From assembly GCA_021826605.1 (NCBI GenBank), contig JAKAZF010000001.1, positions 1-29,979 on the forward strand: 29,979 bases of DNA. Direction: 5' to 3'. The notes under the pieces are model-generated. The model saw nothing but the letters and a program-made list of their open reading frames with translations. It was not told where the DNA came from and made no database searches. The stretch is from Planctomycetota bacterium (GTDB lineage Bacteria > Planctomycetota > Phycisphaerae > WQYP01). The number at the start of each line of letters is the position of its first letter. Position 1 is the stretch's first letter. A program made the translations under genes and the position numbers. Positions 5,236-29,949 of this stretch are shown piece by piece.

Positions 5236-8200
5236 TTATGGTATGCCGCACAGAAAAAGTTCGGCTTTCCATAGGGACTTGAGTGTTTGACCTTTCGCAT
5301 CCATGCCGAGAAATTCTTTGCGAATACGGGCATGTAGCATCTCCCCATATATTCTCCAATCAGTTTGGAAGCCCATACTCGTCAAAGCGGCGATATTGCT
5401 GCGCAATGCGGCTCTCAATCGCTGTTTCTTTTCATTGGTGCCAACGGCCATCTCGTAACGCGCATACTCCAACGTCGCATGTTGCAGCAAATATTGCACC
5501 TGATAACGATTTTGCCATCGCGCTCCACGAAGTAATTTTTCCGCTTGGCGGAGTAATATTTCCGCCTGATTTAACCTCTTGGTGTTAGCGAATTTGCTCC
5601 CTTCCTTTTGTACTGTTATGTCCGGCATGCAGCCGAGCACATGGCATTCCGCCTCCATCATTAAAATAATCGCACTGGCAAGCTGTTCATTCGGGCTTGC
5701 GGCACGGTTCATAGCAGCTTGCGCCCGCCTGAAACTAACCAAAACACGCGGATCATTTCCGCCTTTCATACCACCGACGGCATAAAGTGCATACCCACGT
5801 ATCGCGTGCAGCAGTCCAACAATTGAGCGCGTCGCTGCATCAAGGCGGCCCTGTGGTTGAAGTCGTTCCAGCATTTCAGTACAGCCCTTTGCAATCTTGC
5901 TCAGGTCCGTGCCATTCGGAACTGTGCAATTGACTGGGACATCGTCCAGAAGCCATTCGAATCGATATGGCCATACGGCACGGTACAGTAAGTCGCGTTG
6001 GTGGAACATTTCTAGCCTTGCTTCGAGTGCTATATCTTCAGCAGAGGGGGCTTTGTTCGCGCCTTTCTCGCTAGTCCCACCGTTTGGCGGCTTGCAGAGT
6101 TCGTAGAGCCTGTCTGCCAAGTTGCATCTTTCCGGCTGGAATCGCTTTTCCAGAAAGCTGCGTAGGGGTTTGGAAAAAGGAAATGCTTTCCATCTCGGCG
6201 CATCACTCCGCCCGATTTCATTCTCATCAAAACTTGTAAAGAACAGCAGTGGATCAACGGTGTAGCGGGCCAGCTCCGATACAATCTTAAGTTGCGTCTT
6301 GTCTCCATTCGACACACTTTTATTTTCAATAGCTTTATTTATAGTATCAAGAATATCTTTCGGGGTACATGTGCTCAAGGACTGGAGCAACTCTGCCTTA
6401 GTCATAATCCGGTTGTCAATTGTGATATCCTGTTTTGTCGCCACATGCCAGCGGAGTACCTCGTAGCGTGCGGCGTCCCTGGGATGGCCGCTCGCGTTAA
6501 GCAGTTGCGCGTAGATACCAATGATCCGCTGAGTATATTCTCTAAAGTCGCCATTCCCGTTGTTGGTTGCTATATTAAGAACACGGGATAGACAAAATGT
6601 CAAAATAGGAGTAATCTGTCCGATAAGTTCCACGAGTTTCCCGGAAACCAGGAGATATGGATAAAACGCCTCAAGATGATTGGCAATGCCTTTCAATATT
6701 TCGATTTCCTTATCGTCATTGGATATGCCCCCTAAGCTAACGGTAATAGCCATCAATTCGTAGTGAAGGTATTCGACAAACGCTCCGACATCGTGCGATC
6801 TTTTGTACACATCGACAAACATGTAAATGGCAATCTCGTGGAACAATTCCGCAAGGATTTTGGGAGAAAATAAATACGTTGCATCAACTCCGTTACGAGT
6901 GACCATGTCGTATATCTGGTCCCGGCCTTCCAGATGCATCCAATAAAATCCTCCCTCCAGCCGAGACAATATATCCCATTTCTTTCCTGATATTTTACCA
7001 GTCTTGTAATTTCCAATATTGTTGAGGGCTTTATTGCCCAACTCCATGAGTTTGGTATGATCCTTTGCGTATCTTCTCGCTAGCGTTTTGATTGACTGGG
7101 GCACCTTAGAATCACGAGCGATTCGAAGATACCGGGCGAACGCAACCAGCAGTGCCGTGCGGCTTCGCGGGCGGCGGAAAAGGCTGGCGATAGCGATTAG
7201 CAGGCCAGCGGCTAACTTTTTATCCGACTCCGGGATTTCTGATGCCAGCTGTACATTGTCCTTGGTCGAGGTCGAAGTATTAAGCAGAACGCGAACGGAG
7301 TCGCAACTCTTTCTAGCACGATTTAAGTAGCCGTTGCCCCCCGTTGCCCCTGTATATTCGGGTACCTGTTGCTGCCATTTATTAGACTCCGAAGAAGGCC
7401 TGCAAGCGAACACTTCTTTAAGTGCCGCCTCATCGGCTATTTCACTGCCGTCCGCCATTGGGGTGACTGCAACCATCACATGTGAGCGGCCAAAATGTTT
7501 TGCCTGGTCAAACAACTCGCCCAGAAATGTAAAAGTTTCTTTGCGTTGTTGTTCGCGATTTCCACGGTATCTTTCCGGAATTGATGGGTGCACAGAACCG
7601 AATTCACCGAGTGAATCAATTGCCAAGACAAAATTGCCACGGCGCATCGTATGGCAAATCCACTTGATTGCCACATTCCTTTCAATAGCATTGTCGTCAT
7701 TTGCGGAGTTAGATGGTGAATTTTGGCCGTTGTTCGAATTATTAGCCCGTGTCACTTTATTAAGAGCCCCGGATCTCAGAAAATCCACATCTTCAACCAT
7801 AAAGGTTCGACTGGCTGGCACGTGGCCTCGATCCAACCTGGCAAACTCATCCATAATTGCAGATATCAGCCCGGCGCGGGTTGTAAAATCTGCCGCGTCA
7901 ATCCAGATTATCTCGTGTGTCTTTTCCAGGGCATGGGCAGCTTTCAGCAGTGCCGTTGAGGTTCCCCATTGATTTTTTTTTCGCCAGAATACAATCACAG
8001 GTCTGGTTTCAGGCGGAGGATCCTTCTCTTCCGTGGATTTATCCTGATCCATCTCCAGCGGAGGTGGTACCTGTACCACAACGCGATAGCGCGACTGGCT
8101 CACCGCATGTTGGCCGTCGATAACCTGATAAAGTTCCTGCAGAAATAATCGCGCATCCCGGTACATACACACGGCGGCGGGATAGCCTTTGCTAAGTGAC

Positions 8201-9300
8201 GTTGCCGATGTGGTTTCATTGGCAACAACTTGCGCGGCGAGCTTTAGTAAATCCGGTGCCTTGCCATCGCGCGATACCCAGAGCACCATATTGCACCCAT
8301 TGGTAGTCATTTCATCTTTTCGAAAATTACTCAAGTGGTCGGCTACAATATCCATAACACGTCGGTCGCTCCCGCTATAGCCCAGTACCAACAACAGAGG
8401 CGGCACGCATTTTGATCCTTGCGGTTTGAGGTAGTTTCGAATTTCCATCAATGTTGCCGCAGGGAGGCCCTCATCCAGGTCGTAACCGGTCCTCAGCAAG
8501 TGCGTTCCACCATGGAGTTTTACGACAGCTATTTCCTGTTGGCGCACTAGATTTGCCCCCGGCATTGTGGAATCTTTCGCGATCTCGTAGACCGTGGGTT
8601 GATGTCCTTCCATCCGCATCGCACGTTCGATCAGCGAATCAAAGTTTGTGGTTAAAATCAATCTCCAATCTAATAATTTGGTCAGAAAAGCGATGAACTG
8701 GTGTGCCATCGTTGGTTCCCGATCACGGATGAAATGGTCAAAAAATGAATCCACGAAGCTGGAATCGCCATCGGCAATGGTAAGCAGCAGCGAACGGTAG
8801 TCCGTGTATGAAGACATACTTGGCTTCAATCCGTTGAAATGCTTATCTCCCATCTTTCGGTAAAGTGGTGCAATCTTACGGATTTCTTCCATGACAGTGG
8901 ACCGATAGAGCATTTCGCGGTCTGATTCAAATTTAGCATTGAGGTCGCGAATAATTTCGCCGTTATAAATACATTTTGACCTCTGTTGCGGATCTGTCTT
9001 CCTGCTCTGTGCCAGCAGCCAACGTAACCAAGTGTCATGGCGATGAGGCCAACCAAATTTTCGCAGATAGTTCCTGTAATTATTTTCCCATCCGTCTGAT
9101 TTGGCCACTGCGCAAACGGCGCAAATGTAATCAGCAAGGAAATTGGATGTTGGAATACCCGCGCCGACAGAGATGCCGGCACCAAATAGAGGTACAATTC
9201 GGCGACCATTCTCGTGGCATTTCTTTATAAACGTGAAGGCCTTATCGGGGCTAATGTCCTCAATGGGGCCGTTATTGCTATTTCTCGAGTTGTTTGCCAT
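5236..9300 (-). CDS. SIR2-STAND-like defence protein (SIR2 NADase domain, degenerate P-loop, helical repeat C-terminus)
   Basis: 1354 residues. The ATG at 9300 follows GAGGAG at ideal spacing. A SIR2 domain spans about 30-390: PLFGAGIS (37-44), GIPT (48-51), TTNFD (217-221), KLHG with the expected catalytic His263, and LGYSGSD (306-312). In known antiviral SIR2 proteins these residues hydrolyse NAD+. Residues 430-690 look like a STAND-type NTPase: VIVFW, then QWGTST at 444-449 where Walker A should be, lacking the Lys, and a Walker B-like FVLAIDSLGEF (557-567). The rest is helical, probably TPR-like sensor repeats. The order fits SIR2-STAND (Avs5-like) abortive-infection proteins: a sensor tail, a switch and an NAD-depleting effector. 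It is transcribed alone from its own promoter. NTP binding is doubtful because of the P-loop. Confidence 0.75.
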   Translation of the reverse strand: MANNSRNSNNGPIEDISPDKAFTFIKKCHENGRRIVPLFGAGISVGAGIPTSNFLADYICAVCAVAKSDGWENNYRNYLRKFGWPHRHDTWLRWLLAQSRKTDPQQRSKCIYNGEIIRDLNAKFESDREMLYRSTVMEEIRKIAPLYRKMGDKHFNGLKPSMSSYTDYRSLLLTIADGDSSFVDSFFDHFIRDREPTMAHQFIAFLTKLLDWRLILTTNFDSLIERAMRMEGHQPTVYEIAKDSTMPGANLVRQQEIAVVKLHGGTHLLRTGYDLDEGLPAATLMEIRNYLKPQGSKCVPPLLLVLGYSGSDRRVMDIVADHLSNFRKDEMTTNGCNMVLWVSRDGKAPDLLKLAAQVVANETTSATSLSKGYPAAVCMYRDARLFLQELYQVIDGQHAVSQSRYRVVVQVPPPLEMDQDKSTEEKDPPPETRPVIVFWRKKNQWGTSTALLKAAHALEKTHEIIWIDAADFTTRAGLISAIMDEFARLDRGHVPASRTFMVEDVDFLRSGALNKVTRANNSNNGQNSPSNSANDDNAIERNVAIKWICHTMRRGNFVLAIDSLGEFGSVHPSIPERYRGNREQQRKETFTFLGELFDQAKHFGRSHVMVAVTPMADGSEIADEAALKEVFACRPSSESNKWQQQVPEYTGATGGNGYLNRARKSCDSVRVLLNTSTSTKDNVQLASEIPESDKKLAAGLLIAIASLFRRPRSRTALLVAFARYLRIARDSKVPQSIKTLARRYAKDHTKLMELGNKALNNIGNYKTGKISGKKWDILSRLEGGFYWMHLEGRDQIYDMVTRNGVDATYLFSPKILAELFHEIAIYMFVDVYKRSHDVGAFVEYLHYELMAITVSLGGISNDDKEIEILKGIANHLEAFYPYLLVSGKLVELIGQITPILTFCLSRVLNIATNNGNGDFREYTQRIIGIYAQLLNASGHPRDAARYEVLRWHVATKQDITIDNRIMTKAELLQSLSTCTPKDILDTINKAIENKSVSNGDKTQLKIVSELARYTVDPLLFFTSFDENEIGRSDAPRWKAFPFSKPLRSFLEKRFQPERCNLADRLYELCKPPNGGTSEKGANKAPSAEDIALEARLEMFHQRDLLYRAVWPYRFEWLLDDVPVNCTVPNGTDLSKIAKGCTEMLERLQPQGRLDAATRSIVGLLHAIRGYALYAVGGMKGGNDPRVLVSFRRAQAAMNRAASPNEQLASAIILMMEAECHVLGCMPDITVQKEGSKFANTKRLNQAEILLRQAEKLLRGARWQNRYQVQYLLQHATLEYARYEMAVGTNEKKQRLRAALRSNIAALTSMGFQTDWRIYGEMLHARIRKEFLGMDAKGQTLKSLWKAELFLCGIP

Positions 9301-9564: not shown

Positions 9565-9713
9565 TTCCAACAGGGCCTGTGACAGATTCTGCCAGGTCTC
9601 TCGGGGCCAAATCCTTAACTTTTTAGCGCTGTTGCGCATTATCCCTCTTTCTGCAACCCTATAGCTTTCCCGACGAATAGCCCAGACTCGCTGAACAACG
9701 TAATTGACAAGTA

Positions 9714-9875
9714 GGCATCGCGAAGAAATAACGTGAGCAATTATGGCGCAGGAATTTTGACCGCCGGCAAGGCGCTCGCGAGGCGCATATCCGCATGGAT
9801 TCTGTAACGAGCGGGCAACGCCGCCGGCGGTCAAAAGAACCAGCCAGAATGCTCAGGTTATTTTTTCGCGATGCC
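9714..9875. mobile_element. 162-bp TA-flanked fold-back MITE
   Basis: The terminal inverted repeats match at 23 of 25 positions (left GGCATCGCGAAGAAATAAC..., 9714-9738; right 9851-9875). A second perfect 14-bp inverted pair lies inside, TTTTGACCGCCGGC (9755-9768) and its complement (9823-9836). TA sits on both sides (9712-9713, 9876-9877). Removing the element and one TA restores GACAAGTAAATAACATGCC, which is exactly the uninterrupted sequence at 11825-11843 and 12667-12685. TA duplication points to mobilisation by a Tc1/mariner-IS630-type transposase (family knowledge); none is in the window. Confidence 0.85.
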
Positions 9876-9919
9876 TAAATAACATGCCGCCACAGTGATC
9901 GCGGAAAAGAATCCTGAAC
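9876..9919 (+). repeat. 44-bp module, copy 1 of 3
   Basis: TAAATAACATGCCGCCACAG... through CCTGAAC is identical at 11831-11874 and has one mismatch at 12673-12716. A shorter relative is in the 481-bp element near 17611. The module comes before heptamer repeats each time. Confidence 0.85.
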
Positions 9920-9985
9920 GGGAACCGGCACCCACTATTGCCACGCAACCCCGTTGTTCGTTCACCGCCGCAGCGCTTCCCTATT

Positions 9986-10066
9986 CTCCTAACTCCTAAC
10001 TCCTAACTCCTGAATACTCGGCCATCTCCTGTCTCCTGAACACTGAAAACTGAAAACTGAACACTG
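9986..10066 (+). repeat. Heptanucleotide repeats (CTCCTAA, then ACTGAAA)
   Basis: Three CTCCTAA heptamers and a variant CTCCTGA run from 9986 to 10013. CTCCTGT/CTCCTGA and then ACTGAAA-type heptamers follow to 10066. The same two blocks recur at 11696-11750, 12028-12083, 12559-12592, 12838-12865, 13494-13520, 17716-17738 and 17892-17912. Confidence 0.85.
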
Positions 10067-10155
10067 ACTTGCCATTACCCGCCAGCGCCGCCCCCTATAG
10101 CACCAGCACAATATCGCTGGCTTCTGAATTCCGGATTCTTTGTGAAAGGATTCCT

Positions 10156-11328
10156 ATGCCCAACCTCATCACCGCCACCCGCTGCCTCGCCAACCTCCCA
10201 CCACTCGCCCCGCGTTGGCTCTGGAAAGACCGACTCCCAAAAGGAAAAATCGTCCTCCTCGCCGGCCCCTCCGGCTCCGGCAAAACCTTCATCGCCCTCG
10301 ACATCGCCGCCCGTATCACCACCAACACGCCATTCCCAAACCCCACTCCCAGTTGTTCGTTGCTCGTTGATCGTTGTTCGTTGCAGGACCCTGCAACACC
10401 CCCCACCCAATCCACCGCCCACCTTGTTGATTTCTCCGCTGAAATGGCCGCCGCCACCGCCAACAAATCCCCCGAGGAACAACACGCCAAAAACTGTGGC
10501 TCAGTCCTAATTATCACCCCCGAAGAAGACCTCATCGACAACATCCGCCCACGCCTCGAAGCCGCCCATGCCGATGTCAATAAAGTCACCGCCACCACCG
10601 ATCTGTGCATCGACAATCTCAAATCCTGCACCGATCAAATTGAAGATCTTAAACTTATCATCATCGACCCACTCGCATTCCTCGTCGCCAACGACAACGA
10701 ATCCCCGCACATCGCCCCAAAACTTTTTGATCTTTACCAGCACCTCTTTGGCCGCTCCATCTCCATCCTCGCCCTGCTCCCCATGCACCCGGGCCGCGCC
10801 GACCCGCTCCACCGCATCCCCCGCATAAATTCCCTAGCGCCCTTCGCCTCCATAATCTATGCCGCATCACCTGACTACCGCGAAGAAAACACCCAACCCA
10901 ACCGCCGCGTCCTGATCCAGCTAAAAAACAGCCTCAGCCCACTTGCACCCGCCCTGGCCTTCAACATTGAAAATAGTGCTGTCGCCTGGTCCCAGGACGC
11001 CCTCCCCGACGAAAACATTGACGCAATAATCACCGCCCCGCGCCGGAAACCAGGTCCCGATCCAATCAAACTCGACCAATGCACCCAATGGCTCTACGAA
11101 TTTCTCGCCCCCAATCCACGTCCCCAGGCCGAAGTCCTCGACGCCGCCGCCAGCGCCGGATTCTCCTATATAACGCTCCGCCGCGCTAAGGACGAATTAA
11201 AGGTCCAATCCAAACACGCAAAAGAAGGCCATTGGCTCTGGCGTGTCCCTCCCAACCAACTCGAATACGACAATTTCGACCAAATGACCGACGAAGTCCT
11301 CCGCGCTAAATTCCCACCCCCAATCTAA
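10156..11328 (+). CDS. RepA-like AAA ATPase (AAA_25 / RecA fold)
   Basis: 390 residues from ATG 10156, preceded by AAAGGA at five bases; an in-frame upstream ATG at 10069 lies in repeat DNA. The N-terminus has Walker A GPSGSGKT near residue 37, followed by IALDIAARI. VLIITPEEDLIDNIRPRLEAA and LKLIIIDPLAFLV (Walker B) follow, then a winged-helix-like tail with AEVLDAAASAGFSYITLRRAKDEL. This is the layout of RepA/DnaB-like ATPases found in phages, plasmids and mobile elements, often near primases. Between Walker A and VLIITPEED there are about 60 residues where relatives have roughly ten to twenty; that insert contains a heptamer repeat tract (10352-10386). The coding strand is extremely C-rich and G-poor, unlike the housekeeping genes, suggesting a foreign or element-linked origin. 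Its role is unknown. Confidence 0.75.
   Translation: MPNLITATRCLANLPPLAPRWLWKDRLPKGKIVLLAGPSGSGKTFIALDIAARITTNTPFPNPTPSCSLLVDRCSLQDPATPPTQSTAHLVDFSAEMAAATANKSPEEQHAKNCGSVLIITPEEDLIDNIRPRLEAAHADVNKVTATTDLCIDNLKSCTDQIEDLKLIIIDPLAFLVANDNESPHIAPKLFDLYQHLFGRSISILALLPMHPGRADPLHRIPRINSLAPFASIIYAASPDYREENTQPNRRVLIQLKNSLSPLAPALAFNIENSAVAWSQDALPDENIDAIITAPRRKPGPDPIKLDQCTQWLYEFLAPNPRPQAEVLDAAASAGFSYITLRRAKDELKVQSKHAKEGHWLWRVPPNQLEYDNFDQMTDEVLRAKFPPPI
10352..10397 (+). repeat. Five heptamers plus hairpin inside the ATPase gene
   Basis: GTTGTTC, GTTGCTC, GTTGATC, GTTGTTC and GTTGCAG run without a break from 10352 to 10386. They are followed by the complementary CCTGCAAC, so GTTGCAGG-AC-CCTGCAAC (10380-10397) is a hairpin. 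The tract is translated as SCSLLVDRCSLQDPAT in the ATPase frame. Confidence 0.85.
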
Positions 11329-11786
11329 CCGCGCCGCACACGCCTGAGAACATCCTGACGAAAATCCAGTAGCCCCCGTCGTCGTCGCCGCAGCGACAGC
11401 TCAACTCTCTACTGCTCACCTGCTCCGCGCCCGGCAACCGACAGCAATTCTCCAGGCCAGCCGTGCAGCGGCGGGGCTTTGGCAAAAATGGATTGAGCAG
11501 TAGAAAGTAGAGCAGTAGACCGCAGGAGAACCTGCATTGCTGGCGACAGCCTGTCCTCTTGCTTTAGCCGAATTTGCTCTACTGTTCACCTGTTCTACTC
11601 ACACCTGCTCTAATCGGGCCGCGGCCCGATTTGCTCTACTGCTCGCCTGCTCCGCGCCCGGGCTACCGACAGCAATTCTCCTCGCAGCGCCTCCCTATTC
11701 TCCTAACTCCTATCTCCTAACTCCTGTCTCCTGTCTCCTGTCTCCTGATGTGTCATTACCCACCAGCCCCGCCCCCTATAGCCTCT

Positions 11787-11874
11787 CCACGGCACAAGTG
11801 CCGCATCCCGGTCCGCCGGGATTTGACAAGTAAATAACATGCCGCCACAGTGATCGCGGAAAAGAATCCTGAAC
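11787..11874 (+). repeat. Double-hairpin plus 44-bp module, copy 2
   Basis: CGGCAC-AA-GTGCCG (11790-11803) and ATCCCGG-TCCG-CCGGGAT (11805-11822) are two adjacent perfect hairpins directly followed by TTGACAAG and the 44-bp module. TA at 11831-11832 is the empty site corresponding to the MITE insertion at 9712. The arrangement repeats at 12629-12716. Confidence 0.85.
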
Positions 11875-12099
11875 AGAAACCCGTTGCTCGTCACTCGTTG
11901 AGCGCCCGTGTGTTTCGTTGCTCGCTGCTCGTTAAGCGCAGCGTTTCGTTGTTCGTTGCAGCCAACAGCTCGCGCCCATTCCGCGCGCTCCCTGTTGTTC
12001 GTTGCTCGTTGCCGCGCTTCCCTGTTCTCCTAACTCCTATCTCCTAACTCCTGAATACTGGGCCATCTCCTAACTCCTGAATGCTGAATGCCCCCCCTT

Positions 12100-12200
12100 A
12101 AAACATCTTGGGCATCTTGGGCAACTTGAACCAAACCCGCCAACATCAACGCTTCCATCAACTTGCGCAACTTGGGCAAGTTGCCCCCTAACTTGGGCAT
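12100..12200 (-). repeat. CAAGATGCC/CAAGTT repeat unit, copy 1
   Basis: This is the first of three related units (others at 12890-12985 and 17752-17874) containing GAACCAAACCCGC and runs of CTTGGGCAT or CTTGAGCAC. Read on the minus strand, each keeps an open frame giving a similar peptide around ALxLAGLVQ. Confidence 0.7.
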
Positions 12201-12628
12201 CTTGGGCACCTTGGCCGTCGCAGCGACAGCAATCCTGTTGTTCGTTGTTCGTTGCTCGTTGCTCGTTGAAGCGCAGCGTTTCGTTGAAGCGTGTCGTTGT
12301 GTCGTTGTGGTAAATACCGTCGTCGTATCCCAACCTCTGTGATCTCTGTGCCCTCTGTGGCTACTCGTCGTCGTTTCCTCCCCGCGTCATTGCGGTACAC
12401 TGTGTCTGTTGTTCGTTGCTCGTTACTCGTTGTTCGTTGAAATTGGCCTCCGTTACCTCGTGGTAAATACCGTCGTGGTCGTCGTAACGCCGCGCCTTTG
12501 CGTTCTCGTGTTTCTTTGCGGTTCGCACTCGTGGTGATTTCCCGCCGTCCCCCAACCCCTGAAAACTGAAAACTGAAAACTGAACACTGACTTGCCATTA
12601 CCCACCAGCGCCGCCCCCTATAGCTTCT

Positions 12629-12716
12629 CCACGGCACAAGTGCCGCATCCCGGTCCGCCGGGATTTGACAAGTAAATAACATGCCGCCACAGCGATCGCG
12701 GAAAAGAATCCTGAAC
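12629..12716 (+). repeat. Double-hairpin plus 44-bp module, copy 3
   Basis: The sequence is the same as the copy at 11787-11874 apart from one T-to-C change in the module (CACAGCGATC). TA at 12673-12674 is uninterrupted. Confidence 0.85.
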
Positions 12717-12889
12717 AGGAACCGGCACACACCGTTGCCACGCAACCCTGTAGTTCGTACTTCGTTGCTCGTTAAGCGCAGCGTTTCGCTGTTCGTTGTA
12801 GCCAACAGCTCGCGCCCATTCGGCGCCCAAAAAGTCTTCTAACTCCTAACTCCTAACTTCTGAATGCCCCCCTGGGGGCCCAAAACATC

Positions 12890-12985
12890 TTGAGCATCTG
12901 GAGCACCTTGAACCAAACCCGCTAAAATCAACGCTCCCATCCACATGCTCAACTTGAGCACCTTGCCCCCTAACTTGAGCACCTT
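12890..12985 (-). repeat. CAAGATGCT/CAAGTT repeat unit, copy 2
   Basis: This is the second copy of the unit at 12100. The minus-strand frame reads MLKLGGKVLKLSMWMGALIL and then AGLVQGAPDAQDVL. It differs from copy 3 by one 24-bp in-frame unit, one missense change and two synonymous changes in the shared part. Confidence 0.7.
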
Positions 12986-13586
12986 GGTCGTCGCAGCGAC
13001 AGCTCAACCCTGTAGTTCGTTGCTCGTTGAAGCGTAGCGTTTCGTTGAAGCGTGTCGTTCCATCGTCGTATCTTTGTGTCGTAGTGTCATCGTGGTAAAT
13101 CCCGTCGTCGTCGCCGCAGCGACAGCTCAACTCTCTACTGCTCGCCTGCTCTGCGTTCCTCCGCTCACCTCCGCCACCCCGTGGTTCAAAAAAGCCTTTG
13201 CGTCTGTGGCTACTCGTCGCCGCCCCTTTGCGTTCTTACGCTCCTTTGCGGTTAACCCCGTTGTTCGTTGCTCGTTACTCGTTGAGCGCAGCGTTTCGTT
13301 GAAGCGTGTCATTGTGGTAAATCCCGTCGTCGTATCCCAACCTCTGTGATCTCTGTGCCCTCTGTGGCTACTCGTCGTCGTTTCCTCCGTTTACCTCCGC
13401 TACCTCGTGGTGAATACCGTCGTCGCCTCCGTAAAGCGCGGTGAAGCCGCCTCGCTCGCTAAACATCAGGTCGCAATCTGTTACCTCGTGGCTCCTAACT
13501 CCTATCTCCCAACTCCTAAATGCTGGCGGTGCCGCCGCGTTACAAAATCGGCCACAGGCCCAAGTGCCATTCGCGGCTGCCCCCAG

Positions 13587-16166: not shown

Positions 16167-17336
16167 TCAGGTTTGAACAACTTCCGCACCACCACCCGCG
16201 GTTGTGGCGAACATGGAGGCCCGCTTGCCGCCACAGCGTTCAGGATACTGGCTTTCAATGGCTGCGGTAAGCGCGTCGATGGATTGACGTTCCACCAGGG
16301 CGACGATGGAACCACCGAATCCGCCGCCGGTCATGCGTGCTCCGTAAACACCCTCCACCGTCGCGGCAATCTCCACGAGAACATCCAGTTCCTGACAGCT
16401 TACGCCATAGTCGTCCCGCAGACTTTCGTGGGACTGATACATGAGTTTGCCACACGTCGGCCATTGCCCGGCCTCCATGGCGCGGGCAAATTCCAGCGTG
16501 CGGGCATTTTCAGAAATCACATGCCGGGCGCGGCGGAACACGGTTGGGTCCAACTCCATGCGGGAGGTTTCCAGCATGGAATTATCCACATCGCGGAGCG
16601 CCCGGACTGCGGGAAACCGCTTCTTAAAAGTCGCCACAGCACGCTCGCATTGATTTCTGCGGGCCTGATATTCACCTTGTACAAGCTCATGCTTGACATT
16701 GGAGTTGGCGATAAACACCCGTAAATTCGGATCTTTCATGGGCACTTGGCGGCGTGAAAGATCGCGGCAATCCAGCAGCATGGCGTGATCCTTCCGCGCC
16801 AGCGTGGAGATAAACTGGTCCATGATGCCGCAGGGCATGCCGGCGTAGTGGTGCTCCGCCCATTGTGAGGCCAGCGCAAGATCAACCTTGTCGAGTTGTT
16901 TGGCATTGACCGTCAGAAGGGCCAGACCCATGGCAACTTCAAATGACGCGCTGGAAGACAACCCACCGCCCAGCGGAACTGTCGCCGTAATAAGGGCGTC
17001 CATCCCATGCTGGATCAGTCCACGCAGCCGCAAAGCCTCGGCCACGCCTTTCGCGTAAAGCGACCATTTGGGGACATTCTTGTCAACCGTATCCGCCACT
17101 GAAAATTCCGCCAATTCTTCAGCGGTGGTGCTGAACAGGCGGACGCTGGTATCCGTGCGGGCTTTGGCGGTGATGGTGGTGAAGCGATCAATGGCAATCG
17201 GAAAGACGAAGCCATCATTATAATCCGTGTGTTCCCCGATAAGATTCACCCGGCCCGGTGCCCGGGTCTGGATGAAGGCCTTGGCGGACTTTCCAAAGTG
17301 CTTCTCAAATTCCTGTTCCAATTGGCGATTGTTCAT
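16167..17336 (-). CDS. galK: Galactokinase
   Basis: 389 residues from ATG 17336, which has GGGAG seven bases upstream; a longer frame to 17555 runs into a mobile element and is rejected. The GHMP kinase has the galactokinase signature APGRVNLIGEHTDYNDGFVFP, the phosphate loop VPLGGGLSSSASFEVA, CGIMDQF with the catalytic Asp, and GARMTGGGFGGSIVAL near the C-terminus. It phosphorylates galactose to galactose-1-phosphate with ATP in the Leloir pathway. No galT or galE is nearby. Transcription probably starts near 17397 and continues into trpD. Confidence 0.96.
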   Translation of the reverse strand: MNNRQLEQEFEKHFGKSAKAFIQTRAPGRVNLIGEHTDYNDGFVFPIAIDRFTTITAKARTDTSVRLFSTTAEELAEFSVADTVDKNVPKWSLYAKGVAEALRLRGLIQHGMDALITATVPLGGGLSSSASFEVAMGLALLTVNAKQLDKVDLALASQWAEHHYAGMPCGIMDQFISTLARKDHAMLLDCRDLSRRQVPMKDPNLRVFIANSNVKHELVQGEYQARRNQCERAVATFKKRFPAVRALRDVDNSMLETSRMELDPTVFRRARHVISENARTLEFARAMEAGQWPTCGKLMYQSHESLRDDYGVSCQELDVLVEIAATVEGVYGARMTGGGFGGSIVALVERQSIDALTAAIESQYPERCGGKRASMFATTAGGGAEVVQT

Positions 17337-17403
17337 TTGATGACTCCCGCGGTTATCCATAGGGTGGACAAATTTCTGGCCGCACACGCGGCGACAGTCC
17401 GGT

Positions 17404-17432
17404 ATGCTAGGGGCACACGGGTGGTAAATCAA
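17404..17432 (-). promoter_or_regulatory. galK-trpD promoter
   Basis: On the minus strand TTGATT (17427-17432), 17 bp, then TAGCAT (17404-17409). The predicted start is near 17397, about 60 nt before the galK ATG. The mobile element at 17471 lies only 38 bp upstream of the -35. Confidence 0.5.
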
Positions 17433-17470
17433 TTGCTCGCCGCCCACGCGGGCTTGGCGACCTGGCAACA

Positions 17471-17951
17471 GGGCCTGTGACAAATTCTGCCAGGTCGCGC
17501 GGGGCCAAAGCCTTAACGTTTTAGCGCTGTTGCGCATTATCCCTCTTACTGCCACCCTATAGCCTTCCCGATGAACAGTTCAGACCTGCTGAACAATGTT
17601 CTTTGACAAATGAATAACATGCCTGCATCAATGGCTCCGTCTCAGCCATGAGGATCGCTACGCACCCAAACAAATCACGATGCTCGCGCCCATTCCACGC
17701 CCAAAAAGTTCCTACTCCTGACTCCTGACTCCTGAATGCCGGCCCTCTTAAAACATCTTGGGCATCTGGGGCACCTTGAACCAAACCCGCTAAAATCAAC
17801 GCTCCTATCCACATGCTCAACTTGAGCACCTTGCCCCCTAACTTGAGCACCTTGCCCCCTAACTTGAGCACCTTGAAATTCGCAAGGTCTTCTAACTCCT
17901 AACTCCTGAATGCTGGCGGTGCCGCCGCGTTGCAGAATTGGTCACAGGCCC
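17471..17951. mobile_element. 481-bp nonautonomous element with 20-bp TIRs and 10-bp target duplication
   Basis: The left end GGGCCTGTGACAAATTCTGC (17471-17490) matches the reverse complement of 17932-17951 at 19 of 20 positions. The perfect 10-bp direct repeat CCTGGCAACA flanks it (17461-17470 and 17952-17961). The inside holds a left module shared with 9573-9711, a trace of the 44-bp module, CTCCTGA heptamers, the CAAGTT/CAAGATGCC unit (17752-17874) and a right-end hairpin module shared with 13523-13561. It lies between divergent genes galK and the ferritin-like gene. No protein gene is convincing. It is either a MITE-like transposon or a deletion derivative of a larger element. Confidence 0.85.
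17752..17874 (-). repeat. CAAGATGCC/CAAGTT repeat unit, copy 3
   Basis: This is the longest of the three units (others at 12100 and 12890). On the minus strand it contains the 24-bp piece CAAGGTGCTCAAGTTAGGGG... repeated in tandem. The frame reads MLKLGGKV (repeated), LKLSMW, then IGALILAGLVQGAPDAQDVL, and lies inside a 104-codon open frame (17557-17871) whose remainder is repeat DNA. Confidence 0.7.
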
Positions 17952-18000
17952 CCTGGCAACAGCCTGGCGACACGGGGGTGGGGATTAAGAAATATTCTGG

Positions 18001-28328: not shown

Positions 28329-28342
28329 GGGGGCGTGACACT

Positions 28343-29431
28343 TTACGCGGCTCTGCACCGTCCGACAGATGAACGGCTGGCCCAGTAACGGTCCCAGCGT
28401 TGATCTTGGCTCATCCACATAGCCCGCAGGGCCAAGATGGCTTCCACCCCTGAGATATTCCAGAACTGGTCCGTACCTTTGACGCGCTTATTAAACCCTT
28501 TGACTCCCGCCTCCGTGTTACCCGAGCCGATCGGCCAGCCTTTTTTTCTGTACACGTCATATCGCATGTGCTCTTGGTGTTTCTCAAAATAGCCCTGATT
28601 CTGTTGCAATACGCGTCGTGGATGTTCCGGGCCATCGCTTGGTTCCGGCGGACCCAGCCGTAGCGATTCCGCCCTAATTTCGGCGATAACCTTGGCGACG
28701 TGGCCTTCGTACAGCAGTCCCCGTAGGTGTTCCCATCGGACAGAAGCTTCGGACGAGTCCCGGCCATGCACGGATTTGGCCACTGCATCCAAATGCCCGG
28801 AGGCATGATCGAAATCAACGATCCGTACATCCGCGAGTTGGTGCTTGGCGTCCACGGGATCAATCCAGTTCCCGGCGTCACTGATATTGAGCACCACCGA
28901 GGCCTGGGCTTGACCGCGACGCCTTGCTTCCAACTCCACCATCGGGCCGAACACCTCGGCATTTCCCATCGTGGCCACATACGTTGTCACCAACGGACGC
29001 GGCGGCTTTTCACCCCCGTCTCCCGGTAGATAACTGGTGAAACTGGCCGCTTTGTCCTCACGCCATCGGCTTTTGGTTTTTTCATCTTTCACCCGCCCCT
29101 GCACGCGGCCGCCATCCATCCCAATCACCAATAGCGCCGGCGGGTTGGGCGGGCCAGCTGGCAGAATGCCCTGGGCTTGCGCGGCGAGTTCTTCCGACCG
29201 AAGTTCCACTGCCGCACGCCCCAACGTTTCCGACCAACGCTGCACTTGCTTGCCATCGAGTTCCATATGCCAATCTATCCCCAACGACCGTGCCGCCGGA
29301 TCAAACGTCTGCTGGGCCGCCTCGCGGGCCACACGCTCCGCTGCCCGCGACGTTAGCGGCACTCCCGCCGGTAACGCCCAATCACGATCCTGAGGGGGAA
29401 AAAGACCGGTTACAAGCCCGGCATCTGGCAC
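28343..29431 (-). CDS. ISKra4-family transposase, catalytic part (second frame)
   Basis: The frame is open for 362 codons from GTG 29431, but it is probably read as the continuation of the upstream frame after a +1 shift. Conserved ISKra4 segments: VTTYVATMGNAEVFG, NISDAGNWIDPVDAKHQLAD, YRKKGWPIGSGNTEAGVKGF and a C-terminal SGVEAILALRAMWMSQDQRW. Acidic residues in LLVIGMDGGRV, NISDAGNW and GSGNTEAG are the likely DDE triad (inference). It cuts and joins the IS ends. The GTG is not preceded by a ribosome site, which supports expression by frameshifting or inactivation. Confidence 0.85.
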   Translation of the reverse strand: MPDAGLVTGLFPPQDRDWALPAGVPLTSRAAERVAREAAQQTFDPAARSLGIDWHMELDGKQVQRWSETLGRAAVELRSEELAAQAQGILPAGPPNPPALLVIGMDGGRVQGRVKDEKTKSRWREDKAASFTSYLPGDGGEKPPRPLVTTYVATMGNAEVFGPMVELEARRRGQAQASVVLNISDAGNWIDPVDAKHQLADVRIVDFDHASGHLDAVAKSVHGRDSSEASVRWEHLRGLLYEGHVAKVIAEIRAESLRLGPPEPSDGPEHPRRVLQQNQGYFEKHQEHMRYDVYRKKGWPIGSGNTEAGVKGFNKRVKGTDQFWNISGVEAILALRAMWMSQDQRWDRYWASRSSVGRCRAA

Positions 29432-29753
29432 TCTGCCTTGTTATCACGATGACCCCATCGGGGCTGCGCAACTCCTGCTGCCGAACCACCGGTTCCAGAT
29501 AGGTCCGATCCGATCCACAACGTGGACACAGGCCCGCTTGATCCTGCCGCGCCGACTCGCTTAACGCCGCCCGTTCCTCCAGCAGCGTAGGAATCACCGT
29601 CTCCCTGACCCGCTGACCCTGTAGTTCAAAATCCCGAAAGGTCTGCCCCTTCAAGGGAATAGCCTCATCTTCAGGAATCACTTGGTCCAGTACTTCCAAA
29701 AAATCTTTCGTGATGCGCTCACGCGCCTCCCGCCGAGTTCGGATAGCCGACAT
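29382..29753 (-). CDS. ISKra4-family transposase, N-terminal part with zinc ribbon (first frame)
   Basis: 123 codons from ATG 29753, which follows AAGGAGG. It contains LCPRCGSDRTYL and ARCRACNRSF, two CxxC knuckles of a zinc-binding domain that probably contacts the IS ends. It ends with RSFSPSGS and TGA at 29382-29384. The overlap with the second frame contains a TTTTTCCCCC run. Joining SFSP to the second frame gives a continuous and plausible protein. Confidence 0.8.
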   Translation of the reverse strand: MSAIRTRREARERITKDFLEVLDQVIPEDEAIPLKGQTFRDFELQGQRVRETVIPTLLEERAALSESARQDQAGLCPRCGSDRTYLEPVVRQQELRSPDGVIVITRQSARCRACNRSFSPSGS

Positions 29754-29949
29754 GGTACATTCCTCCTTGAATAGAAAATCACACCGACCCACCTCCAATG
29801 TGGATCATCTAACGCCCATTATACCAAACCCCTTCCGCGTAAAGTGTCACGCACCCGATCGCTGCACAGTTGATCGCAAACATAAACGGCTTGAAGGGCG
29901 ATGCTTTAATCTTGCCGGTGATGTATCAAGTTCGGATAATGGTTGAGCT

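Follow-up and report, generated by a model that had tools for sequence, protein, structure and literature searches.

In a contig from a Planctomycetota bacterium, a 481-bp segment adjoins the galactokinase gene, galK, with a rubrerythrin gene on its other side. Did this segment arrive by transposition, which transposase would have moved it, and what is its mosaic interior made of? A sequence-only reading of the 29,979 nucleotides analysed here (the window) had described a new-looking transposable element whose inverted ends agree in all but one of 20 positions, with 10-bp direct flanks and an interior that is no gene but a patchwork of modules shared with the region at 9.6-13.6 kb.

The 481-bp element in the window

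When recomputed, the coordinates, the inverted ends and the direct flanks were all as had been described (Table 1). The two ends, GGGCCTGTGACAAATTCTGC and GGGCCTGTGACCAATTCTGC, are identical at 19/20 positions, and the 20-bp pattern, at up to three mismatches, matches the window three times (9573 plus, 17471 plus, and 17932-17951 minus), with no match in 100 dinucleotide shuffles of the window. The flanking word CCTGGCAACA is not rare by itself, occurring four times at up to one mismatch against 2.7 expected, so it is the exact abutment of its two copies on both ends that constitutes the evidence; the right copy and the adjoining DNA also form an imperfect 11-bp tandem (17952-17972). The strand of the element was assigned from the conserved module of ~150 bp at its left.

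Table 1. Features of the window discussed in the text.
Feature	Coordinates	Strand	Basis and remarks
Non-autonomous element (MITE), 481 bp	17471..17951	+	Inverted ends, target duplication, aligned relatives
Left terminal inverted repeat GGGCCTGTGACAAATTCTGC, 20 bp	17471..17490	+	End comparison, pattern scan
Right terminal inverted repeat GGGCCTGTGACCAATTCTGC (reverse complement), 20 bp	17932..17951	-	End comparison, pattern scan
Target duplication, left copy CCTGGCAACA, 10 bp	17461..17470	+	10/10 against right copy
Target duplication, right copy CCTGGCAACA, 10 bp	17952..17961	+	10/10 against left copy
Conserved left module	17471..17620	+	Mean column identity of 86% across 13 aligned copies; second window copy at 9573-9711
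Heptamer array, unit TCCTGAC, 3.9 copies, interior	17710..17735	+	Repeat search and self-comparison
Interior module	17750..17854	+	Also at 12100-12204 and 12882-12986; dispersed matches in relatives
21-bp tandem repeat AACTTGAGCACCTTGCCCCCT, 2.7 copies	17819..17875	+	Tandem repeat search
Stretch bracketed by the same ends, 3989 bp	9573..13561	+	Starts GGGCCTGTGACAGATTCTGC, ends with diverged GGGCCTGTGGCCGATTTTGT
Near-palindromic element, 162 bp	9714..9875		Flanked by TA (9712-9713, 9876-9877); nested in left module of the bracketed stretch
AAA_25 ATPase gene	10156..11328	+	Pfam PF13481, E 1.8e-19; inside the bracketed stretch
ISKra4-type insertion sequence, different ends GGGTGCGTGACACTTTACGCGG	28329..29856	-	ORF2 58% identical to L083 ORF2

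No recognisable gene was found in the interior, its longest ORF (17557-17871, minus strand) encoding 104 aa that matched no Pfam family; an Rfam scan of the window returned nothing at the gathering score. A structured RNA in the left module was considered and rejected, there being no Rfam match in the window and a consensus fold without covariation support (covariation term -0.23, two-sided change in 1 of 25 pairs). The modules in common with the 9.6-13.6 kb region are likewise real, comprising the left 134 bp (89%), a 105-bp module (97%) and the right 63 bp (87%), to which heptamer arrays can be added. Several features by which MITEs are recognised are found together in the element, which is short, has no transposase gene, carries inverted repeats and a target duplication, and has its ends in common with autonomous elements of related genomes.

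The galK ORF (16167-17555), when taken from its first start, extends into the MITE; judged from relatives, the true start probably lies near 17338. Elsewhere in the window, the product of 735-2900 matches the PADLOC model AriAB over its full length (residues 1-675, E 1.6e-130) and looks like a fused PARIS anti-phage defence protein. A 1354-aa protein with a SIR2-like domain is encoded at 5236-9300, its best PADLOC match being partial (PDC-S65, E 3.9e-17, residues 193-264).

Distribution of the ends

Across the genomic contigs of 84,980 species, the exact end pattern occurs in 19 stretches, 18 of them from Planctomycetota (one titled Phycisphaerales) and one from a Chitinophagaceae bin. Carriage by phages or plasmids was rejected, as viral contigs contained no exact ends and blastn found no match of the element in phages or plasmids. 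All seven whole genomes reached from these loci contain the ends, with 4-55 per genome at up to two mismatches, against 0-1 for a reversed-pattern control in the same genomes. In six of the seven, galK is 78-79% identical to that of the window, and in the seventh 57%, which points to a planctomycete as the source of the window. A search for the 20-bp end in relatives, as proposed in the sequence-only reading, found it at up to one mismatch in 19 of the 28 genomes of one planctomycete order, that of genome G004. These relatives are draft assemblies, often broken inside these repeats.

Evidence for transposition

Sixty stretches were fetched from the match lists with a preference for facing ends, and are not a random sample. 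An adjacent inward-facing pair is present in 33, and 27 have unpaired ends only (at up to four mismatches), several being cut by contig edges. The fetched pairs, together with those of the window, L125, L126 and L180, gave 38 end pairs for analysis. An 8-10 bp duplication with no more than one mismatch flanks 22 of these, compared with a mean of 0.61 pairs and a maximum of 4 when flanks were shuffled among pairs in 2000 runs; the remaining 16 have no duplication at this threshold. Genome G023 holds five complete 194-bp copies, identical once brought onto the same strand and bearing perfect duplications (8 bp in one, 9 bp in four), as well as three copies cut by contig ends.

Seven relatives of 339-647 bp are 73.6-86.4% identical to the window element over aligned columns. 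An empty site, of the kind the sequence-only reading had called for, was found for one relative and not at the window locus. This relative is the 535-bp element at L110 (G006), whose identity to the window element is 77.6% across 464 aligned columns; its flanks, when joined with one copy of the duplication, align to L166 (G005) at 418/450 positions with no gap. For the window copy, the seven whole genomes yielded no exact empty site: homology on the galK side ends at ~17433-17436, that on the rubrerythrin side begins at ~17994, and the DNA between does not match. The two genes lie on different contigs in six of the seven genomes, those with both, and G004 had no rubrerythrin match. A candidate empty site for L115 was rejected, since its left flank was found in G004 and G006 with homology stopping 53 bp before the element.

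Elements with these ends thus enter sites that were empty before, duplicating 8-10 bp of the target. The claim of a transposable element that has moved is supported, given the many two-ended copies, duplications far above chance, identical copies within one genome and the exact empty site of a relative. Two observations had been named that would speak against it, namely an absence of other copies with these two ends, or orthologous loci containing the segment with no empty-site counterpart; neither was made.

Transposase-bearing elements with the same ends

The same ends are found on elements of 1541-1596 bp carrying an ISKra4-type (Mutator-like) transposase in three genomes. The first, L083/L124 in G004 (1541 bp, ends 19/20, 9-bp duplication with one mismatch), was found as L083 from the ends alone. 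Searching with the ORF2 transposase of L083 found L125 in G018 (1541 bp, the same ends, no duplication) and L126 in G001 (1596 bp, one end with three mismatches, a perfect 9-bp duplication). The window ends equal the L083 left end at 17-18 of 20 letters, GGGCCTGTGACAAATTCTGC at 18/20. The window element's ends are those of transposase-bearing elements in related genomes; elements with a transposase, which the sequence-only reading had recommended looking for, exist, and the label "new-looking" is not supported, the ends already belonging to ISKra4-type insertion sequences.

L083 encodes two overlapping frames. Against NF033572 (ISKra4 family transposase), ORF2 scores 169.1 bits and the frame-joined protein 191.1 bits (E 3.4e-56), the next best family reaching 39.3 bits. 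Neither attains the curated NCBIfam cut-off of 205 bits, for which reason we use the name ISKra4-type and do not assign ISKra4 membership. In L083, L125, L126 and the ISKra4-type element of the window, ORF2 is shifted by +1 with respect to ORF1, with overlaps at 4525-4535 of L083 and 29393-29403 (minus strand) of the window; all four contain TTTTTCCCCCT, near which a +1 shift would join both transposase frames. In a large protein set, 1407 proteins matched among 7998 candidates scored. Nine of the 120 matches listed are single-frame (451-483 aa) and cover no less than 93% of the joined protein; the rest, of ~320-385 aa, represent the second frame alone.

ORF2 matches of any strength at E<=0.001, many of them short or distant, occur in 22 of the 28 genomes of the order. 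In G023, pieces of a transposase of this kind occur together with these ends, several of them truncated where a contig stops. G002 (55 ends) and G006 (12 ends) gave no transposase match at E<=0.001, an absence that means little in such fragmentary assemblies. The ISKra4-type insertion sequence within the window has other ends and no visible target duplication, so the 481-bp element need not have been moved by it. An IS1182 family transposase (368.3 bits against a cut-off of 270) lies within one further end pair, the 2550-bp L098; because this pair has no duplication (4 mismatches in 9), the IS1182 element is more likely a nested insertion.

A second bracketed stretch

A diverged copy of the right end at 13561, missed in the sequence-only reading, means that 9573-13561 is bracketed by the same two ends. 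The stretch shows no target duplication at its ends and contains the AAA_25 gene, a tandem duplication of modules and the nested 162-bp element; it is probably a composite with nested and duplicated modules, and not a single clean insertion. Uninterrupted versions of the nested-element site lie near 11822 and 12664. Among the loci then fetched, the 162-bp element has one 80% relative, in G007 (L119 164-327), and we take its TA duplication to recall IS630/Tc1-type MITEs.

The AAA_25 gene is 88% identical in G003 and G004, where galK is 78-79% identical. Its relatives in other genomes adjoin the same repeat modules (L106, L175, L177), these loci matching the window only in the gene and the modules. 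When eight AAA loci (L106, L175-L180 and L193, with L106 and L176 overlapping) were checked for the ends at up to five mismatches, L106/L176 had one end, L180 had a separate 298-bp element nearby, and the other five had none; whether the gene is a regular passenger of these ends is undecided. The L110 element of G006 and the 9573-13561 stretch share their downstream neighbours, a MarR and an FMN-reductase-like gene, and since G005 is empty at that place, the two are probably independent insertions.

Chimeric and exchangeable interiors

Lengths between these ends range from 52 to 3989 bp, with unlinked interiors, and the longest (2550 and 3989 bp) have no duplication. Clustering of 37 interiors, one of the 38 being too short, gave groups of 25, 5 (the 194-bp copies) and 3 (bearing the ISKra4-type transposase), and four singletons.

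The 194-bp element is a chimera: the segment from base 19 to base 157 is also found at other places where these ends are absent, and an unrelated 152-bp MITE, mostly contained within it, also exists alone. Most free copies of this MITE measure 152 bp; they have the ends GTAACCGTTCACGG and target duplications of 8 bp, and the GTAA ends together with this duplication length are reminiscent of IS66 elements. This second MITE family was found at L207-L224 and L226 (G023, G012, G027, G022, G011, G020), with many copies in G027. In 20 fetched stretches, 12 of 32 end pairs of any length have a duplication at up to one mismatch (shuffled control: mean 0.55, maximum 4), and among the 19 pairs that span 151-154 bp the figure is 10. 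In the chimera, the 20-bp ISKra4-type end takes the place of the initial 14 bp of the MITE, and the other MITE end is followed by 37 bp of the insertion-sequence left end (92% to L083, 97% to L225), the parts being joined at a 2-bp GC overlap. In the simplest history, the MITE would have inserted into an insertion sequence, the DNA between it and the far end would have been deleted, and a transposase acting in trans would have amplified the product; the 194-bp element thus clearly illustrates a way in which chimeric MITEs can arise.

The heptamer pattern CTCCTRACTCCTRACTCC, at up to two mismatches, has 437 matches in G001 (for example on contigs C34, C87, C125 and C133) against 1 for the reversed control, in a genome with 9 ends. 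In G007, one of 29 matches falls inside an element, and interior modules and heptamer arrays alike often match away from these ends. The idea that heptamer arrays are the normal cargo of the ends was rejected, as, among the ten genomes searched, G018 and G023 possess the ends and have no match to the pattern.

Origin of the element and alternative explanations

The 481-bp element is very probably a MITE of ISKra4-type insertion sequences, which belong to the prokaryotic Mutator-like elements with a DDE transposase. An insertion sequence of this type would provide the transposase in trans; the enzyme would bind both 20-bp ends and insert the element at staggered cuts ~9 bp apart (10 in the window), with repair making the duplication; we infer that the 481-bp element was itself mobilised in this manner. 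Because only the ends matter, the interior would be free to decay and to take up other repeats, such as heptamer arrays and further MITEs, and perhaps a gene; whatever it took up would then be carried along. Several observations sit less comfortably with this assignment: the only ISKra4-type element in the window has other ends, 16/38 pairs have no duplication, the transposase score is 191.1 against 205 bits, G002 and G006 have no transposase match, L083 alone of the transposase-bearing elements was reached from its ends and not through the transposase, and the 10-bp duplication of the window is outside the 8 or 9 bp given in the portion of PMC3942029 used here.

Three other explanations were weighed. 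It is hardly credible that no transposition took place and that a palindromic repeat dispersed in the genome, REP/BIME-like or a terminator, faces inward twice by chance. The 27/60 stretches whose ends have no inward-facing partner, several of them cut by contig edges, and the pairs without a duplication speak for such a repeat; set against this are 8-10 bp duplications in 22/38 pairs versus 0.6 after shuffling, identical complete copies, the same ends on transposase-bearing elements, and the exact empty site of the L110 relative, which already refutes it for the family. Very improbable too is that what really moves is the interior, with the GGGCCTGTGAC ends just belonging to one of its modules: modules and heptamer arrays do occur at many places away from the ends, but duplications and the empty site fall exactly at the GGGCC ends, and two genomes with the ends (G018 and G023) have no heptamer pattern match.

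Improbable, to a lesser degree, is that the mover came from a different transposase family whose ends are similar and whose duplications measure 9-10 bp. The missed equivalog cut-off, the 10-bp duplication in the window and the IS1182 family transposase within the L098 pair are all consistent with it. Against it, L083, found from the ends alone, has an ISKra4-type transposase, and L125/L126, found via the transposase, have the ends; the L098 pair is without a duplication, and its IS1182 element is more likely nested.

The ISKra4-type assignment can be compared with known systems. The portion of PMC3942029 used here describes prokaryotic Mutator-like elements as having 18-39 bp inverted repeats with a terminal C and 8 or 9 bp duplications, with which the 20-bp ends beginning GGG (CCC on the other strand) and the 9-bp duplications of L126 and L083 agree. 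Its p-MULT 4 elements, found in Planctomycetes among others, and the ISKra4 family (NF033572) resemble the present elements in transposase match (E 3.4e-56), GGG ends, 8-9 bp duplications and occurrence in Planctomycetes; they differ in that the transposase of the related elements scores below the curated cut-off and the 481-bp element itself has none. In the same portion, the ISMich2 group is described as encoding its transposase in two ORFs that a -1 frameshift joins; two ORFs are found here as well, but the shift would be +1, which sets these elements apart from that group. The head-to-tail 7-bp units in intergenic DNA of Beggiatoaceae and Cyanobacteria, as presented in the part of PMC4679880 consulted, are similar in arrangement to the heptamers here, which have other unit sequences and lie partly inside transposable elements. 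Judged from its listings, the open-licence literature, a scope with ISfinder and most subscription journals outside it, yielded no paper on ISKra4-derived MITEs in Planctomycetes, PMC4853749 dealing, in the part consulted, with other MITEs. As in bacterial MITEs generally, the elements are short, without transposase, with inverted ends and target duplications, in several copies, and have ends in common with insertion sequences; unlike them, they span 52-3989 bp between ends, with unlinked interiors.

Plant Pack-MULEs consist of Mutator-superfamily ends around acquired interior DNA. A bacterial counterpart, in which ISKra4-type ends repeatedly package and spread unrelated DNA (MITEs, tandem-repeat modules, possibly the AAA ATPase gene), is a tentative and rather unlikely extension of the findings. 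The likeness lies in the Mutator-superfamily ends around acquired DNA, for which the 194-bp element is the best case; in contrast to the plant elements, the acquired DNA here is mostly other repeats, and the sole hint of gene capture is the AAA_25 gene, which lies in a stretch that has no target duplication. The module and heptamer matches often found away from the ends also speak against it. If such packaging does occur, much of the intergenic repeat landscape of these planctomycetes would have been moved by one transposase type.

Implications

Insertion of the MITE explains why galK in the window is called with a spurious extension at its N-terminus, and MITE repeats of this kind explain why contigs break inside them. 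Beyond this locus, the draft genomes of an environmental planctomycete order are seen to contain small, recently mobile DNA elements that can be tied to a known type of transposase.
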